Assembly: GCA_016841525.1 (NCBI GenBank)
Contig: JAENYZ010000002.1
Span: 144,078-208,077 of the forward strand
Source: Anaerolineaceae bacterium
Lineage (GTDB): Bacteria; Chloroflexota; Anaerolineae; Anaerolineales; Anaerolineaceae
DNA: 64,000 bases
Direction of reading: 5' to 3'
In this document: positions 22,517 to 30,675 of the stretch, piece by piece
Position numbering within the stretch: the first letter of the stretch is position 1
Layout: each line of letters starts with the position of its first letter
Position numbers and translations under genes: made by a program
The notes under the pieces: generated by a model
What the model was told of the DNA's origin: nothing
Database searches by the model: none
What the model saw: the letters and a program-made list of their open reading frames with translations, nothing else

Positions 22517-22619
22517 TAGACCTATTATACTTTAAGCTGAAAAGGAAAAATTTGTTTCTCTCTTTGACTGACGGCTATGTTTGTGGACCAAAAATTTCTG
22601 CGACAATTTGACTCGCTTA

Positions 22620-22628
22620 TGCTATACT
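22620..22628 (+). promoter_or_regulatory. Possible extended -10 promoter of the six-gene operon
   Basis: TGC followed by TATACT gives an extended -10 with no good -35 at 17 bases. It lies about 105 bases before the first gene. The 218-base gap between wecB and this operon holds no other clear signal. Confidence 0.4.
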
Positions 22629-22734
22629 TTAATCATTGTCATGTACGAAACAGACATCTTTATGTATTTAAGGTGAGGTACGACATAATAAATTATTTTT
22701 CAAAATTGGACAAGCACATGCAAGGAGCAGAACA

Positions 22735-23484
22735 ATGAACTGGTCCATTCTTGGATGGGGATTGATTGGCATTGCAATTATCCTTTTGATCATTTTTACC
22801 TTTTTGTTTAAAAACGGCAGATCCTACCAGGTTCGAAAGAATAAACAAATTGAAGGCCTGAAGGTCTCGCGTGTTAAGGCAATTGAAGGTGGTCTGCATC
22901 GGACGCTTGTCCTTGGGCACAAATTGACGTCATCAAGTTATCCCGGCATCGGTCTCAACAGCCTGGCTGTTATGCCCGGTCTGCTTGATGCGGAAACTTT
23001 GGTTGATGGGAAGTTCAATATCTCTACCTCTCAAGGTTCCATGGTGGTATTTGCAAGACAAATTGTTGAAAATTCATACCAGAATGGGTTTTCAAAAGAC
23101 CTGGTCCAGAAGGGTGTCAAAGCTGTGCTGCCCGGTCCAACTGCTTATTCCAACCTGGTTGGGCTGCTTTATGAGCTGGATAAGCACCCGCAGCATGGGC
23201 TGATATTATCCGGAAATTTTGGCCCCGAGGCTTCTTTGTTAAGTGAGGTCTCCCAGGCGAAAAATGGCTATGTGTTTGCTGCCGCCGGTACCATTGCTTC
23301 GCAGTCCGCCTTATTTTCACAGGTAGAGGACTTGATGATCGGTGAAGATAGCTTTATGCTGCCTGGTTTGCTCGCACCTTCTCCGGGAAGAGCTGCTGGA
23401 TGGATGACAGAGGATATCTTGCGGCTCTTGCTGATCTTGACGATTATTATTGCGGCACTATTAAAAATGGTTGGTGTCTTATGA
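22735..23484 (+). CDS. Operon gene 1: membrane protein, DUF6754-like
   Basis: 249 residues. One hydrophobic segment at each end (residues 5-25 and about 228-247) flanks a soluble domain of about 200 residues, with GLHRTLVLGHKL, DAETLVDGKF and an alternating Gly-rich tail (GPEASLLSEV, AAAGTIASQSALFSQVEDLMIGED). I recall similar proteins being labelled DUF6754 in Anaerolineae, but this is from memory. Its stop overlaps the next start by 4 bases. It probably forms part of a membrane complex with the downstream products. Confidence 0.7.
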   Translation: MNWSILGWGLIGIAIILLIIFTFLFKNGRSYQVRKNKQIEGLKVSRVKAIEGGLHRTLVLGHKLTSSSYPGIGLNSLAVMPGLLDAETLVDGKFNISTSQGSMVVFARQIVENSYQNGFSKDLVQKGVKAVLPGPTAYSNLVGLLYELDKHPQHGLILSGNFGPEASLLSEVSQAKNGYVFAAAGTIASQSALFSQVEDLMIGEDSFMLPGLLAPSPGRAAGWMTEDILRLLLILTIIIAALLKMVGVL

Positions 23485-24095
23485 AAAAGATTCTTGCTGT
23501 CAGCATCCTTTTATTAATTGGTTTGACGGTTTTAGCAGGTTACTTTTTTCCACAAGCCCTTGGTCCAATCCTAAATTTAGTCATTGATTGGGGTATATTG
23601 CTGATCGGCACAGCAGCTTTGATTGGTATTGGCTATTTAATCAAGACCCACATCAGCCGAATAGCAAGGCGAGATAAACAAAGCTTTTTGAGCCTTGTGC
23701 TTTTGTTGGCTTTTGCCGTCACAATTATTATTGGTTTGATTTTTTCCTTCAATCACCCAATTTTTACAGACTTGATGATCAACGTTCAGTATCCTGTTGA
23801 AACCAGTTTACTCGCAGTTTTGGCTGTGGTTCTCTTGACGGCAAGCTTTCGATTAATCAGCACCCGGGGATGGACCCCGATGTCTATTGCGTTTTTATGC
23901 AGTTCTGTTATCACCGTTGGGCTTGATGCAGGGTCGATTTATTTGGGAACGGAAGGTGCAGGCGCTGAAATTTTGAATTTCTTGAGGCGATTGCCCATGG
24001 TAGGCGCACGGGGTATTTTGCTAGGGATGGGTTTGGGCGGCTTGATTGTGGCTTTGCGAGTTTTATTGACCATTGAGAAACCATATGGTGAATGA
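23481..24095 (+). CDS. Operon gene 2: polytopic membrane protein, unknown function
   Basis: 204 residues with six predicted transmembrane segments (starting KILAVSILLLIGLTVLAG and ending GILLGMGLGGLIVALRVLL). No residue pattern suggests transport or catalysis. It starts inside the previous stop (ATGA) and ends in a 4-base overlap with gene 3, so coupled translation with fixed stoichiometry is likely. Family not recognised. Confidence 0.7.
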   Translation: MKKILAVSILLLIGLTVLAGYFFPQALGPILNLVIDWGILLIGTAALIGIGYLIKTHISRIARRDKQSFLSLVLLLAFAVTIIIGLIFSFNHPIFTDLMINVQYPVETSLLAVLAVVLLTASFRLISTRGWTPMSIAFLCSSVITVGLDAGSIYLGTEGAGAEILNFLRRLPMVGARGILLGMGLGGLIVALRVLLTIEKPYGE

Positions 24096-25810
24096 TGACA
24101 GATAAAATTATTTGCCCGGAATGCGGTGCTGAAAACGAAGAAGACGCTGAATTTTGTCATGTTTGTCATGCGGATCTAAAAGGAGATACGACTTTAGAAT
24201 TTATTGATCCCCAGCAGACAGATCATGATGATTTCGACTTGTTAAACGTTGAGGAAGAGGACCTGACCGATATACTCCACGCGTTGAAACAAACGGATGA
24301 GGAAGCGATCCTGGAGGAAGAGATTAAGGAAGATCAACTGCCGGTTGTCGAGCCAGAAGAAGGGTTTGATGAAGGGAAAGCCCAGGAGGATGAGGGAATC
24401 CCGGATTGGCTGCATCGAATCCGGCAGCGTGCTACTGAAGAAGATGATTCCCTGGGAGAGATCACTCAAAAGATTTCGGCAGCAAAAGAAAGCCTGAAAG
24501 GTGATAAACCTGAAGCACAGCATGAAAATTTTGAGTCGTGGATTGAAAAATTGCGCGGACCCGTTGGCGGCTTTGTAAATAAGGAACCCGAAGCAGCAGA
24601 CTCAGATGATGCCTTTGATGATGAAGATGAAGAAATTCAGGAGAAGGAACCCGATTGGCTTCAAAAGATTCGAAAAGCTGAAGGAAAAGAAATTGTTGAA
24701 GAGGACCAGGAAACGCTTGATCACGGCGAGAATGGTTTATTAAATTGGTTAACTGCCCTGGAAGAAGGTGAAGAGGACACTGCTGAGGAGGGGGATGAGC
24801 CTGATCTCGTCGACGAAGATATTGAAAGTGAATCCGTCGAGATAGATGAATCAGCAGCAACCCGTGAAATTCCCGTAGATGAAGCCCCTTTATTTAAAGC
24901 TATACCTCCAAAGCTGACCATCACCAAAGAAGAGAGAAAACAGGCGGATCAACTCACATCAATGATTTTAGATGAGAATGCCCCAAGACCTGTCCGTGCA
25001 ATCAAACGACGCTCAAAACTTGGCGCTGCGCGCTTTTTCTTCGCCATTCTTCTCATCCTTGGCATGAGCCTTTCCCTATTTATTGGTGGAACAACTAACA
25101 ATCAATTTGGACCAATTCAGCCGCATACTACTGGATTTTTGTCCTGGATGTCGGATTTGGAAGAAGGTTCTTCAATTCTGCTGGTGTTTGATTATCAACC
25201 TGCGTATGCAAGCGAGATCAATCTGGTTGCGACGCCAATACTCCAAAGCCTGGTATCAAAAGATACCGAAATCAGCCTGATCTCCTCTTCAATTTCAGGG
25301 GCCATCCTCCAGCGGCAGCTACTTGGCGAAATTCACGCGTTGGAAATGGATGCCACGCATGATTTAGGGTATTTCCCGATTGGCGCTTACGGCGCATTTG
25401 GATTGGGTATGGTGACATCAGCGAACTGGCAAATTGTTGGACTGCCTGAAAGTTCAAAAGCGCTGCCTGACAGCGGATTTGACAGCATCCTGATCCTTTC
25501 TGATACGGCTGAAGGTGTCAGAACCTGGATTGAACAACTGACGGTATTGATTCCCAATACACCCATTAACCTGGTTGTCACTGCGCAATCAATGCCGATG
25601 CTGGTTCCTTATTTTGACTCGGGACAAATCACAGGAATGGTTTCAGGGCTAAATGATGGTGTAATTCTTGAGGCTGAATTATCAACAGGCATTCTGATTG
25701 GAAATCGTCGGCGGGCTTACCAGGTGGGTTTGGTGATGCTGGCAGCTGTTATGGTGATTGGTGCGATAAATGCTGGCAATCAAAATCGGGAGGAAGGGGG
25801 TGGGGCATGA
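24092..25810 (+). CDS. Operon gene 3: zinc-ribbon, acidic linker and membrane-anchored protein
   Basis: 572 residues. It opens with a CPxCG...CxxC zinc ribbon (CPECG near residue 9, CHVCH near 23). A very acidic, low-complexity linker of about 270 residues follows, holding three short DWLxxI(R/L) motifs (PDWLHRIR, PDWLQKIR, LNWLTALE). Then come a transmembrane segment (about 313-330), an outside domain of about 200 residues beginning SILLVFDYQPAYASEI, and a C-terminal transmembrane helix. The repeated WL motifs look like docking sites. Starts and ends overlap neighbours by 4 bases. Confidence 0.72.
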   Translation: MMTDKIICPECGAENEEDAEFCHVCHADLKGDTTLEFIDPQQTDHDDFDLLNVEEEDLTDILHALKQTDEEAILEEEIKEDQLPVVEPEEGFDEGKAQEDEGIPDWLHRIRQRATEEDDSLGEITQKISAAKESLKGDKPEAQHENFESWIEKLRGPVGGFVNKEPEAADSDDAFDDEDEEIQEKEPDWLQKIRKAEGKEIVEEDQETLDHGENGLLNWLTALEEGEEDTAEEGDEPDLVDEDIESESVEIDESAATREIPVDEAPLFKAIPPKLTITKEERKQADQLTSMILDENAPRPVRAIKRRSKLGAARFFFAILLILGMSLSLFIGGTTNNQFGPIQPHTTGFLSWMSDLEEGSSILLVFDYQPAYASEINLVATPILQSLVSKDTEISLISSSISGAILQRQLLGEIHALEMDATHDLGYFPIGAYGAFGLGMVTSANWQIVGLPESSKALPDSGFDSILILSDTAEGVRTWIEQLTVLIPNTPINLVVTAQSMPMLVPYFDSGQITGMVSGLNDGVILEAELSTGILIGNRRRAYQVGLVMLAAVMVIGAINAGNQNREEGGGA

Positions 25811-26508
25811 CCTTTTCCTACGAGATCATGTGGATCGTTTTCAGCTTTTTGCTGACCTTGATGGTGCTCAGCTATCTCCTCGGCGATAATATCTTCTTTC
25901 GTTTTGCATCCCACCTGTTTATTGGTGTCATGGCTGGATATGTGGTTTTGCTCATTTCAAACCAAATCTTGTGGCCTTATTTGGTCAAACCGATCGTTAA
26001 TTGGACCTTGCCTGGAGTCTTATGGCTGTTGATCCCCCTTATCTTGATCTTCATGCTGGTGTTAAGCCAATTCAAGCGGTTTACATGGATTGGCAGTTTG
26101 CCCTTAGCTTATATGGCTGGTTTAGCGGCGGCAATTGCTGTGGGCGGTGCAGTATTTGGCACTTTGCTTCCCCAGTCGCGAGCGATTGTTGATTCCTTTG
26201 ACCCGGCGATGTGGTACGCAGTGCCAAATCAAACATGGCTTCGCATTCTTAATGCTGTTCTAATGCTGGTCGGCACCGTCGCGACCCTGAGTTATTTTCA
26301 TTTTGGGCGTAAAAGAAAATCAACGATAGAAGAAGAGATGGAAAAACGCCCTGCGATATTGGAGGGTTTGAGTAAGGTCGGGCAGGTCTTTATTGGCATC
26401 AGCCTGGGTGCTGTTTTTGCAGGTGTGTTCTCTTCAAGCCTTCTGGCCTTAATTGATCGCATTCTCTTTATTGGACAATTTATCACCAATCTCTTTCGGA
26501 GTTTCTAA
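25807..26508 (+). CDS. Operon gene 4: polytopic membrane protein, unknown function
   Basis: 233 residues, about six transmembrane segments, with a short charged cytoplasmic loop (GRKRKSTIEEEMEKRP) before the last one or two. It is coupled at both ends: a 4-base overlap with gene 3 and a 1-base overlap with gene 5. Family not recognised; size and topology resemble gene 2, but no convincing residue similarity is visible. Confidence 0.7.
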   Translation: MTFSYEIMWIVFSFLLTLMVLSYLLGDNIFFRFASHLFIGVMAGYVVLLISNQILWPYLVKPIVNWTLPGVLWLLIPLILIFMLVLSQFKRFTWIGSLPLAYMAGLAAAIAVGGAVFGTLLPQSRAIVDSFDPAMWYAVPNQTWLRILNAVLMLVGTVATLSYFHFGRKRKSTIEEEMEKRPAILEGLSKVGQVFIGISLGAVFAGVFSSSLLALIDRILFIGQFITNLFRSF

Positions 26509-28250
26509 TGGACCATCAAGGTGTTTTGCACGCTTTACTTGGTTTGGACATTGGTTTTATCAATACGCGAGCGTCTTATTTTGGTATCCTGGAAGAAAAA
26601 TTCAAGCTGGAAGCCTTTGGTCGGGCATCATCGAGCCTGGGTAAGGATTTTCAGCTCGGGAGCGGCGCAGGTGCCGCCATGCAAGATTTGCAGAGCCGAT
26701 CAGATGTCCACATTTTAAAACCGAATGGCGAATTGATTTGGCCGTTTTATGAAACTGGCCTGGGTGTGGATCATATTGCTGTGACAATTTCCGGAGGCCC
26801 AAAACTCAGAACAGTTTTACTGGGTTTGACGGATTCTGGTTCTCTGAAAGTAGGACATGCGCTCGTTGAATCCATGCCCCTGGCGCTCGTTGCTTCTTAC
26901 AACCTGACAGCATTATCCAATGAAGCTGAATTGGTTGATGCGCTCGTTTCTCAACATCCTGAGCTTGTGATCCTGGTAGGTGGCGAAAATGGCGGTGATG
27001 AGCGACACCTCAGAGCCTGGATCGATGTTTTAAAATTGGTGCTGCGAATATTACCGGATGAGAACAAGCCTGATGTTCTTTACGCGGGGAATGTATTACT
27101 GGAAGAAAGGGTCAAACGACATTTAGAACCTTTAGCAGACCTTACAGTGGTGCCGAATATCCGTCCAGACCAGGATGAAATAGACCTGGTGCCGGCGCAG
27201 GCAGCGGTTGAAAAGATTGTCGTAAAACGTTATCAGAAGTCCATCCCTGGATTCAAAGCTTTGATCACAAAATCAAAATCCATTGCAGGCACGAAAAGTT
27301 TTGCGCTGTCAAGGATGATTCGGTACCTGGGTAGGGCGAATGCCAAAACAAGAAAAGGGGTCCTGGCAATTGATCTCAGCGGTGGCTCGACGATGTTGGG
27401 TGCTGGCACAGATGAAGATTCTGGCGTCATGATCCAGCCTGCCTGGGATGGTTTACCTGGCTCGATCGATATCGGCATGATCGATTTTGTGCATCAATGG
27501 ACTGCTGCTTCGGTGACACGGAAGGATATGAGTGAATTCTTATGCAACCATGCCTTGCTGCCCAATTTCGTGCCTGAAGATATTGATGGTTTAGCAATTT
27601 TACAGGCTTATACGCGATACCGGATAAGGCAGACAGCGCATCGCTTTGCAAAGAATTTTTCATGGTTCCCTTACAAACAAAAGAAAGGGCTTGCAGGCAG
27701 CTTTGAACCGGTGATCGCCAGTGGATCGATCCTGACTCAATCCCCGTCAGATGGTCGAACCATGTTGATGTTGATTGACGGACTGGAACCCTGGGGTGTG
27801 ACCACGATAGTGCTCGATCGCTATCAAATACTGCCGATGCTGGGTTTGGTTGGCACCCAGGAGCCGGTTTTGCCTGTACAGGTGTTAGGTTCGGATGCCT
27901 TTGAAAATTTGGGTACGGTTATTGTTCCCGTTTCAAGTGCCCCGGAAGATGAAGTGATATTAAATGTGAAGGTAAAGATGGATGGCGGCAAAGATTACGA
28001 TGTAGAAGTTTTACAGGGAAGCCTCAAGCGCCTGGTGATCCCATCTGATGTGACAGCAGAACTCAGCCTGGAGCCGATGATTGGAACAGATGTTGGATTT
28101 GGCGGTCAGGGTGTTGGCGGTCGTTTGAAAATTCCGGGCGGAAGCATGGGCGTTGTGATTGATGCTCGGGGTCGCCCTTTACGGCTTCCTGAGGATGACG
28201 AGAAAAGAATTGAGGAGCTGAAGCGATGGCAGGTTGTGCTTGGCGGATAA
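26508..28250 (+). CDS. Operon gene 5: actin-fold ATPase resembling glutamate mutase L (MutL)
   Basis: 580 residues. LGLDIGFINTRASYFGIL near the start and VLAIDLSGGSTMLGAGT in the middle match the phosphate-1 and phosphate-2 loops of the ASKHA/actin ATPase superfamily. The overall pattern (helical IRQTAHRFAKNF region, then SGSILTQSP) resembles MutL/GlmL proteins. No glutamate mutase subunits lie nearby, so a mutase chaperone role is unsupported; an ATPase serving the membrane proteins encoded upstream is more consistent. Its start shares one base with the gene 4 stop. Confidence 0.75.
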   Translation: MDHQGVLHALLGLDIGFINTRASYFGILEEKFKLEAFGRASSSLGKDFQLGSGAGAAMQDLQSRSDVHILKPNGELIWPFYETGLGVDHIAVTISGGPKLRTVLLGLTDSGSLKVGHALVESMPLALVASYNLTALSNEAELVDALVSQHPELVILVGGENGGDERHLRAWIDVLKLVLRILPDENKPDVLYAGNVLLEERVKRHLEPLADLTVVPNIRPDQDEIDLVPAQAAVEKIVVKRYQKSIPGFKALITKSKSIAGTKSFALSRMIRYLGRANAKTRKGVLAIDLSGGSTMLGAGTDEDSGVMIQPAWDGLPGSIDIGMIDFVHQWTAASVTRKDMSEFLCNHALLPNFVPEDIDGLAILQAYTRYRIRQTAHRFAKNFSWFPYKQKKGLAGSFEPVIASGSILTQSPSDGRTMLMLIDGLEPWGVTTIVLDRYQILPMLGLVGTQEPVLPVQVLGSDAFENLGTVIVPVSSAPEDEVILNVKVKMDGGKDYDVEVLQGSLKRLVIPSDVTAELSLEPMIGTDVGFGGQGVGGRLKIPGGSMGVVIDARGRPLRLPEDDEKRIEELKRWQVVLGG

Positions 28251-28275
28251 ATTTGAATAGTGTCTGGTGGCAGCA

Positions 28276-29331
28276 ATGATCGTTGATGTGGTAAGAGCGA
28301 CTTCATGTGCAGAAATCGAACGCGTTCGAAAGCTGCCGTTTCCTGGACAGGTCCTCATGGAAAAGGGAAAGGAAGTCAATCCCCAGGATGTGATTGCTGA
28401 AGCGCAGGTTCCGGGAAAGATCATCATGCTGGATATTGCCAAGGGTCTGGGAATATCACCTGATGAGACGACTTCATGTCTGATTCGTGAGGTAGGCGAT
28501 AATTTGGAAGAGGGCGATATCATCGCCCAATATGAAAAGACCCTACCTCGCATATTTAGAGCACCCATCAATGGAAAAATAATTAATTATTACCAGGGGC
28601 AAATGGCGCTTTCAACAGGGACGATCAAAACTCAATTAACAGCCAATATGATTGGAACGGTAAAAGAAATCATCCCTGAATATGGGGTTGTGCTCTCCTT
28701 ACGCGGCAGTGTGATTCAAGGTTTTTGGGGCAATGGACTGGCTGGCAGCGGTATTTTGAAGCTGTTGGACGCCTCCCAGGATAAACCGATAAGCGCCTCA
28801 ATGCTCAGGGATTTGTTAGCGGATCTGATCATTGCCGGCGGCGCTTGTGTGGAAGGCGAGGTTCTCGATGCCTGTTTGGAAAATGAAATTTCCGGGTTGA
28901 TCTTAGGGAGCTTATCCCCGGACCTTATTCAAAAGGCAGCGGGGATGCCTTTCCCGGTGGTTATCCTTCAAGGTTTTGGGGAGGATGCTTTGGCGCAGGA
29001 TGTTCTTGAGATTTTACAATCTCATTCTGGAGAAAAAATCAGCTTGAACGCTTGTAAGCTTGATCATGCCAATGATGAACGTCCCGAACTTGTCATCCCG
29101 AATGATGAGGAGAAAGAAACAAGGGAGCTGGGTTTTCGAAAGAAATTAGAACTTGGAGACAGGGTGCGCCTTATGTCAGGAAAGGCAAAAAACCAGGTTG
29201 GCAAAGTTGTTGAGTTGATTGAAGAGGATCAATTTTTTGAAAACGGGACTTTTTTACCTGCTGCACTGATAAAATTGCCCAGTTTGGAAAAGGTGAAAGT
29301 CCCCCAGTCAAATCTTGTGATTGTTGGGTAA
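28276..29331 (+). CDS. Operon gene 6: barrel-sandwich (biotinyl/RnfC-like) and KOW-type protein
   Basis: About 351 residues. The first 130 hold two half-barrel units (VNPQDVIAEAQVPGKIIMLD and LEEGDIIAQYEK...RAPINGKIINY) like the lipoyl/RnfC barrel-sandwich hybrid, without a lipoyl Lys motif. A mid domain (DLIIAGGACVEGEVLDACLEN...GLILGSLSP) follows. The last 60 residues form a KOW-like barrel (LELGDRVRLMSGKAKNQVGKVV). ATG at 28276 has GGTGG 5 bases upstream; GTG at 28267 does not. It follows gene 5 by 25 bases and closes the operon. Confidence 0.68.
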   Translation: MIVDVVRATSCAEIERVRKLPFPGQVLMEKGKEVNPQDVIAEAQVPGKIIMLDIAKGLGISPDETTSCLIREVGDNLEEGDIIAQYEKTLPRIFRAPINGKIINYYQGQMALSTGTIKTQLTANMIGTVKEIIPEYGVVLSLRGSVIQGFWGNGLAGSGILKLLDASQDKPISASMLRDLLADLIIAGGACVEGEVLDACLENEISGLILGSLSPDLIQKAAGMPFPVVILQGFGEDALAQDVLEILQSHSGEKISLNACKLDHANDERPELVIPNDEEKETRELGFRKKLELGDRVRLMSGKAKNQVGKVVELIEEDQFFENGTFLPAALIKLPSLEKVKVPQSNLVIVG

Positions 29332-29391: not shown

Positions 29392-30675
29392 TTAATTGTT
29401 TTCTGTTGCTGTTGGCGTTTCAGTGTTCGCCAGGGAAGCTAATAACCACCCTATTTCCCCTGTCTCAATCGTTACTTGATACCAAATTGAGCCATTTTCA
29501 GAGATGCTCTGGTTCAGCACCTCAAACTGTGTGCCATCATTGGCGTAACCAACGACAGGCGCTTGAAAATCGGCTGATTCCCGAATGACAATGCCATTAT
29601 TAGAATCAACAATGATAGAAAAGCGAGTTGGCTGCGGCGAGGGGCTTGCGGTTGGCGATAATGTGTTGGTTGGAGCACTTGTTAAGCTTGGTGCAACGGT
29701 GCTTGTCTGTGTCATCAATCTTTCAGTGGGCGTTGTCATAACTCTGGGTGAATTTGTTCCTGCGGGCATTTTGGTCGGTGTATGGGTAGCATCGTTGATA
29801 GGAATGCTTGTCGGTGCAGGTTTAAATGAGAAGGCGGGCAATGTCATACCGCTGAGACTCAGCGACCCAATGACCAATGTGAAACTGAGGATCAACGGCA
29901 AGATCGCGAGCATCCATCCAGTGTAGTGCTTTGGGCTGAATCCCAATATGAGGAAAGCAATGATTGCAATAAAAACAGCCAGTACCAGGTGGCAAATGGC
30001 GATCAGGATGGCATTTGGCCAGAGGCGAGCAATCCCAAGGGGTAAGCTAAATCCTGCAAGGGCAATTGGAACGAGAATCTCATAAGCTAATAAGACCCCC
30101 ATCTTTCTGGGTAATTTCCCCTGCCTGATCAAGAAAAATACGCATAAAAAGGCGCTCAGGGCAACAGCAGCCATGTCAAGCCAATATGGCGCACTAAAAC
30201 GAATGCCATCTAATCGATTGATCTGCCCGGTCTTTTGAAGATAGCCTGCGAGAACACCGGTTAAAAAAGCGAGCAAAACAGGGATAATCAAGCTAACCAG
30301 GGACTTGATCCAATGTCTGAATTTATGGGCATGTGGAAATAATGCCAGCGCGAAAACCGGGCGGAGAAATGGCGACGCTACTAATCCGAATATAAGGATG
30401 ACAGGCTCGTTAAAGTATAGAGCTAATCCGATTGTTAAACTCCCGAGAAGCGAGAGCAGGAAAAAATTCAATGTTGGTGCGGACAAATCTAAGAGTGAGT
30501 CGAGCAAGATTTGTCTCTCAGCAAGGGAAGCTGCGCGCGGCCGACGCCTTATGTGCCGCTGGCGTACGGGCGGCAGGTCGCTGATTTTTGTGGGTAAGGG
30601 TTCGCTGCTTGGAAGACCCATTTCTCTCATTTCTAAAATTCTCTGATGCACTTCTAAAATGTCTGCTATGCCCAT
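29392..30675 (-). CDS. Membrane protein with Thr/Pro linker and C-terminal SH3 domain
   Basis: 427 residues. A charged cytoplasmic N-terminus (about 60 residues, Arg-rich RRRPRAAS) precedes about eight transmembrane segments (residues 70-275). A Thr/Pro/Ser-rich stretch (about 285-350) then leads to a bacterial SH3-like domain (GIVIRESADFQAPVVGYANDG...WYQVTIETGEIGWL). SH3_3 domains bind peptidoglycan or its stem peptides, so the tail probably faces the wall. No catalytic motif is seen. It converges with the operon on its left. Confidence 0.72.
   Translation of the reverse strand: MGIADILEVHQRILEMREMGLPSSEPLPTKISDLPPVRQRHIRRRPRAASLAERQILLDSLLDLSAPTLNFFLLSLLGSLTIGLALYFNEPVILIFGLVASPFLRPVFALALFPHAHKFRHWIKSLVSLIIPVLLAFLTGVLAGYLQKTGQINRLDGIRFSAPYWLDMAAVALSAFLCVFFLIRQGKLPRKMGVLLAYEILVPIALAGFSLPLGIARLWPNAILIAICHLVLAVFIAIIAFLILGFSPKHYTGWMLAILPLILSFTLVIGSLSLSGMTLPAFSFKPAPTSIPINDATHTPTKMPAGTNSPRVMTTPTERLMTQTSTVAPSLTSAPTNTLSPTASPSPQPTRFSIIVDSNNGIVIRESADFQAPVVGYANDGTQFEVLNQSISENGSIWYQVTIETGEIGWLLASLANTETPTATENN

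Follow-up and report, generated by a model that had tools for sequence, protein, structure and literature searches.

Six open reading frames of an Anaerolineaceae bacterium, here called g1 to g6, lie on the plus strand at positions 22735-29331 of the DNA that was analysed (a stretch of 64,000 nucleotides, hereafter the window). A preliminary description had taken them for a membrane system not described before, with an ATPase of the actin fold. Do the six genes form one system, and does it resemble any that is already known? The genes are as follows.

g1, 22735..23484, plus strand: DUF6754 protein of 249 aa, with a TM helix, a Rossmann-like domain predicted to be cytoplasmic and a second TM helix (PF20539, AlphaFold, charge bias)
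g2, 23481..24095, plus strand: membrane protein of 204 aa with 5-6 TM helices, no known family
g3, 24092..25810, plus strand: protein of 572 aa with a Zn ribbon and an acidic PDWL linker, then a TM helix, a Rossmann-like domain predicted to be extracytoplasmic and a TM helix (AlphaFold for residues 300-572, charge bias)
g4, 25807..26508, plus strand: membrane protein of 233 aa with about 6 TM helices, no known family
g5, 26508..28250, plus strand: ASKHA (actin-fold) ATPase-like protein of 580 aa with an extra C-terminal domain (PF13941)
g6, 28267..29331, plus strand: protein of 354 aa with a barrel-sandwich hybrid, a middle alpha/beta-like region and a C-terminal KOW/SH3 domain

Layout and conservation of the operon

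The genes are closely packed, as had been claimed: the overlaps at the g1/g2, g2/g3, g3/g4 and g4/g5 junctions are 4, 4, 4 and 1 nt, and 16 nt separate g5 from g6. The start of g2 was set at the ATG at 23481 and not at the mechanical ORF start at 23400, and an ATG at 28276 is a possible alternative start for g6. The count of four membrane proteins also held, with about 2 TM helices predicted in g1, 5-6 in g2, 2 in g3 and about 6 in g4.

Scattering of the genes in relatives would have refuted the preliminary description. The opposite was found: gene order and strand were kept in all 40 Anaerolineales loci (13 families), one of which is truncated by the end of its contig and so lacks g1 and g2, and short overlaps were retained at many of the junctions. 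Such constancy in 40 of 40 relatives, in many of them down to the same overlaps, rules out chance as the source of the arrangement, and g1-g6 is a constrained operon. The g5 gene was present in 59 of the 61 genomes of the order, the window's own genome counted. PADLOC gave no defence match worth noting. Downstream and convergent with the operon, the window encodes a DUF389-like membrane protein with an SH3 domain (29392-30675, minus strand), and 20 of the loci read have a relative of it close to the operon.

Elsewhere there is a seventh gene, g0, which encodes a small helical protein of 80-140 aa. In most Anaerolineae and Chloroflexia its reading frame runs into the start of g1, and in other phyla g5 follows it directly. 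The window has no g0, nor have three loci of the same genus (L031, L035 and L038); it is kept in L032, L034 and L039. A tblastn search across the window found nothing upstream of g1, and a search of the window's own genome, run without a positive control, gave no match to g0. We regard g0 as lost here. Two further features belong to this upstream region.

Candidate promoter, 22600..22636, plus strand: GCGACA-17-TATACT with an extended -10; the count of this pattern is not above chance
Empty g0 place, 22637..22734, plus strand: the position at which g0 stands in relatives

The TATGCTATACTTT core is also found just upstream of g0 in relatives of the genus, its conservation being judged by eye.

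The actin-fold protein g5 and its partner g6

The recognition of an actin-fold protein in the preliminary description was well founded, with ATP use not shown. The g5 protein matches PF13941 (MutL) at 1.8e-28 and 100 bits, against a gathering score of 27, and is thus a member of that superfamily. Its phosphate motifs, D14/G16/T20 and D289/G291, are conserved. Some g5 members (L068 and L070) have lost motif residues, which counts against the docking model proposed below. At the C-terminus follow about 115 residues specific to g5 and absent from GlmL, a domain that has an invariant D-x-R-G-R motif and ends in VIDARGRPLxLP.

Identification of g5 as GlmL itself was rejected. Its score was 32.2 bits, compared to the curated equivalog cut-off of 475, and a clade of the short GlmL-like proteins, which had 100/100 support in the tree, contained no g5. 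The homologues of g5 in other phyla scored 218-227 bits for GlmL against the same cut-off. The glutamate mutase L label that had been attached to the ATPase by similarity must therefore be given up, since g5 lies outside the GlmL clade, carries the extra C-terminal domain and has no glutamate mutase to serve. It could still be supposed from this label and from the PF13941 match that g5 is the GlmL reactivase of a B12-dependent mutase and that the other genes are incidental. This is scarcely credible in view of the 32 bits and the separate clade. The earlier remark that no mutase is nearby can moreover be extended: the glutamate mutase E subunit (PF06368) was not found anywhere in the window's own genome. 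It passed the cut-off in only one of the 61 genomes (G031), where the mutase adjoins a separate short GlmL and g5 lies elsewhere. Nothing relevant on glutamate mutase L was found in the open-licence literature.

The g6 protein had been called RnfC-like. This holds for the barrel only, and weakly, the RnfC_N match being below threshold (0.003; 18.0 bits against 25.6); it does not hold for the rest of the protein. No CxxCxxC Fe-S motif is present in the g6 sequence. The C-terminus has a KOW motif (5.7e-5), which we infer is likely just an SH3-like binding module.

The membrane proteins g1 to g4

The g1 protein is a weak but valid match to PF20539 (DUF6754), with 29.2 bits against a cut-off of 27. 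The assignment is repeated in its relatives: PF20539 was matched by all 38 g1 homologues of Chloroflexota, and homologues from other phyla matched DUF6754 at 1e-109 and better. For g3, the Zn ribbon (Zn_Ribbon_1, 2.6e-7) and the long acidic linker with WL motifs, both seen in the preliminary description, were recovered; the ribbon is N-terminal, and the linker, with its P/D-W-L motifs, lies between it and the TM-domain-TM part.

The AlphaFold models of g1 (pLDDT 91) and of g3 residues 300-572 (pLDDT 87) share an order of elements, namely two TM helices with alternating strands and helices of a Rossmann-like kind between them. An hhalign comparison placed 202 columns of the two proteins in register with a probability of only 9%. 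Because of this low probability, common descent of g1 and g3 is only suggested. A PDB profile search gave nothing beyond noise for g5, g1 and g3, and Foldseek and VIA searches with the g1 and g3 models returned only generic Rossmann folds, with no named family prominent.

The distribution of charged residues supports opposite orientations of the two domains, as far as can be predicted from sequence. Around the first TM helix of g1 there are about 4 K/R after the helix versus fewer than 1 before it, and in g3 of Chloroflexota 2.9 before versus 0.5 after. By this bias, the g1 domain would be inside, in the cytoplasm, and the g3 domain outside. The topology of g3 is less sharp outside Chloroflexota (2.1 versus 1.3 K/R). 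The g1 proteins outside Chloroflexota often have N-terminal extensions and signal-peptide-like starts, and if these are what they seem, the extensions are extracytoplasmic; one of them is weakly FN3-like (0.044).

The g2 and g4 proteins are polytopic and have conserved polar residues. The invariant residues of g4 are S22, N28, Q123, F164, F166 and R218. Membership of either in a well-known transporter family would likewise have counted against the preliminary description, and neither matched a known transporter or any other family above cut-off in Pfam and NCBIfam. At least four of the seven genes (g0, g2, g4 and the main domain of g3) have no Pfam or NCBIfam family.

Being polytopic and carrying conserved polar residues, g2 and g4 could nevertheless form the path of a gated transporter or channel, in which the Rossmann-like parts of g1 and g3 would be ligand-sensing gates like RCK and KtrA. 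The model searches offer this idea some help: the highest-ranked match of g3 was the MthK RCK domain (Z 9.7, rmsd 2.6, 113 aligned), and KtrA ranked high for g1 (Z 9.9, rmsd 3.4, 126 aligned). However, many Rossmann folds were tied with them, unrelated proteins falling within 1 Z unit, and no transporter family was matched. Besides, RCK domains are cytoplasmic, whereas the g3 domain is predicted to be outside. We regard a gated channel as quite unlikely.

Distribution and a proposed role in the envelope

In a sample of 251 genomes spread evenly across Chloroflexota, the g5 profile matched 151, a count that takes in some short GlmL-like proteins. The g1 gene was found in 56 of the 251, and every one of these 56 also had a g5 match, compared to 95 of the 195 without g1 (Fisher p 4e-15, not corrected for phylogeny). 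Anaerolineae and several other families have the set complete or almost complete. Many other Chloroflexota keep g5-g6 but have no g1, g2 or g4, and these lineages often have, directly upstream of g5-g6, a separate Zn-ribbon/PDWL protein that lacks the Rossmann part. In other phyla, a TM-Rossmann-TM protein of about 280 aa, the counterpart of g3, is encoded alone, and g3 outside Chloroflexota has no linker. Because the separate Zn-ribbon/PDWL protein so often precedes g5-g6 in other lineages, the g3 of Anaerolineae looks like a fusion of that protein with the TM-Rossmann-TM protein, judging from the predicted domains.

For other phyla we used the motif DYxLxGEExFA, chosen from DUF6754 proteins of other bacteria. 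The genome collection contains at least 119 loci that match a DNA pattern for this motif. Eighty of them were read, and HMMs built from Chloroflexota recognised g1 in all 80; g1-g2-g3-g4 stood in this order in about 57, most of the others being cut by the end of the locus. By record titles, the cassette spans about 20 phyla, including WOR-3, Zixibacteria, Nitrospirota, Latescibacterota, Cloacimonadota, Planctomycetota, Myxococcota, Bdellovibrionota, Gemmatimonadota, Armatimonadota and a Bacillota lineage; two archaeal titles among the motif loci may be binning errors. Tandem copies occur in several of these lineages. The g5-g6 pair lies directly upstream of g1-g4 in Nitrospira, Latescibacterota, Methylomirabilis, Planctomycetes and Armatimonadota, is divergent from it in Zixibacteria and lies downstream in Bdellovibrionales. 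Among 29 non-Chloroflexota genomes picked by the g1 motif only, 27 had g5, nearly always at full length and in many cases far from g1-g4.

What flanks the genes in other phyla is for the most part housekeeping and specific to the lineage. In Nitrospira (L114, L121, L131, L140, L181 and L191), a protein of about 415 aa that is MEMO-like by eye follows g4 directly or a few genes on. In L092, L108, L245 and L258, from Chloroflexota and the Bacillota lineage, g5-g6 adjoins tsaE-tsaB-rimI-like genes or some of them.

These counts show that g1-g4 is a fixed genetic cassette and g5-g6 a second fixed pair, which co-occur tightly and are often adjacent. Synteny and co-occurrence together give good support to a single system made of g1-g6, without showing physical contact, use of ATP or a cargo. 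It remains conceivable, if unlikely, that there are two independent modules, a soluble g5-g6 pair with a job of its own and a separate g1-g4 membrane complex, brought together for co-regulation only. This would suit the many Chloroflexota that have g5-g6 without g1, g2 and g4, and also Fermentithermobacillus, where extra g5-g6 copies lie away from g1-g4. Two separate modules do not explain why g1 is almost never found without g5 (56 of 56 and 27 of 29 genomes), why the adjacency recurs in different orders in several phyla, or why the linker module is apparently fused to g3. Even so, because the pair occurs without g1, g2 and g4 and as extra copies in Fermentithermobacillus, g5-g6 must have another role too. 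Up to five g5-g6 pairs per genome were seen in the Fermentithermobacillus lineage (L245-L248 and L258), and some g6 proteins there reach 450-480 aa, seemingly with an additional barrel repeat.

Some neighbouring genes point to the envelope. In 22 of 22 Anaerolineales loci, the product of the gene directly 3' of g6 is a small membrane protein whose C-terminus bears an LPx[TAGS]G sorting signal; this gene is absent from the loci of the window's genus. The protein (L041-L068; for example L053:6599-7252 and L041:11829-12467) has an N-terminal TM helix, a Thr/Pro linker and a C-terminal LPx[TAGS]G-TM-RR. Sortase (PF04203) was present in all 45 relatives outside the genus and in only 3 of 16 genus members, and it is missing from the window's own genome, apparently a loss at the level of the genus. 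The g5 and g6 genes of Zixibacteria stand on either side of a gene for a secreted TM protein and adjoin genes resembling TolQ-R-A-B-Pal, named by eye. The secreted protein, of about 260 aa, was seen between g5 and g6 in L253, L254, L256, L257 and L269 (Zixibacteria and neighbours), and the Tol-Pal-like genes stood beside g5-g6 in the first four of these. A further hint is given by the N-terminal extensions of g1 in other phyla, which are predicted to be extracytoplasmic. We take the LPxTG/sortase and Tol-Pal synteny as pointers to an envelope link, not as proof.

We incline slightly to the view that the operon is the Chloroflexota version of an old membrane system of many phyla, in which g5-g6 dock on a g1-g4 core and drive an envelope process. 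By inference, g1, g2, g3 and g4 would make up the membrane core of one complex, g5 would bind ATP through its ASKHA motifs, and g5 with its adaptor g6 would dock on the inner face. The docking arm or tether in Chloroflexota may be the Zn-ribbon/PDWL linker of g3; as g3 lacks the linker in other phyla, docking must differ there. Through binding and hydrolysis of ATP, g5 might then bring about assembly, recruitment or gating of the membrane core and so drive the envelope process. Gated transport, export and surface-structure scaffolding are candidates, and none of them is singled out.

Scaffolding recalls the PilM-type likeness noted in the preliminary description, of which only the ASKHA fold survives, there being no PilM, PilN, PilO or PilP family in a Pfam search at E up to 1. 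An envelope scaffold like PilM-PilN-PilO-PilP, with the actin-fold protein joining the cytoplasm to the membrane platform of a surface structure, would fit an ASKHA protein co-transcribed with membrane proteins that bear extracytoplasmic domains, as well as the LPxTG surface protein downstream in relatives. We consider it improbable: besides the missing families, the domains are Rossmann-like and not ferredoxin-like as in PilN and PilO, and the operon has no pilin, motor ATPase or secretin.

If instead the docking of g5-g6 on a g1-g4 core is accepted, the set may represent an undescribed class of ATP-driven envelope machine in about 20 phyla, with a four-subunit core, related Rossmann-like domains on opposite faces and an actin-fold ATPase with a barrel/KOW adaptor that powers or assembles it. 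This wider proposal is tentative, and we would not yet call it probable. The more general claim of an undescribed membrane system with an actin-fold ATPase is supported, and the system proved wider than Anaerolineae and has the seventh gene elsewhere. A gene set kept in about 20 phyla, sometimes in tandem, and tied to an ATPase-like protein probably has an important task in the envelope of many bacteria, most of them uncultured. The g5 protein is easily mislabelled as glutamate mutase L, and once the set is named as a single system, it can be tested in carriers that grow in culture.

Comparison with known systems

As far as these searches can tell, the system is undescribed, with no function shown, and its novelty rests on missing matches and on a limited search of open-access literature. 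No papers on DUF6754, PF20539 or PF13941, and nothing on partners of DUF6754, were found in the open-licence literature, and description elsewhere is not excluded. DUF6754 (PF20539), of which g1 is a weak member, is itself a domain of unknown function. The C-terminus of g6 has the KOW motif in common with NusG, Spt5 and L24, and the rest of g6 is unrelated to them. Its N-terminus is a barrel-sandwich hybrid like the N-terminal barrel of NqrA and RnfC, at a sub-threshold level, but g6 lacks the CxxCxxC cluster motif and has a KOW/SH3 domain after the barrel. The type IV pilus system PilM-PilNOP is similar in having an actin-fold cytoplasmic protein in an operon with membrane partners; it differs in sequence families, in predicted folds and in the pilus genes that the present operon does not contain. 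GlmL/MutL (PF13941, TIGR01319, NF040745) has the ASKHA core and its motifs in common with g5, whereas g5 stands outside the short GlmL clade, has its own C-terminal domain and no mutase, and comes with a fixed partner, g6.
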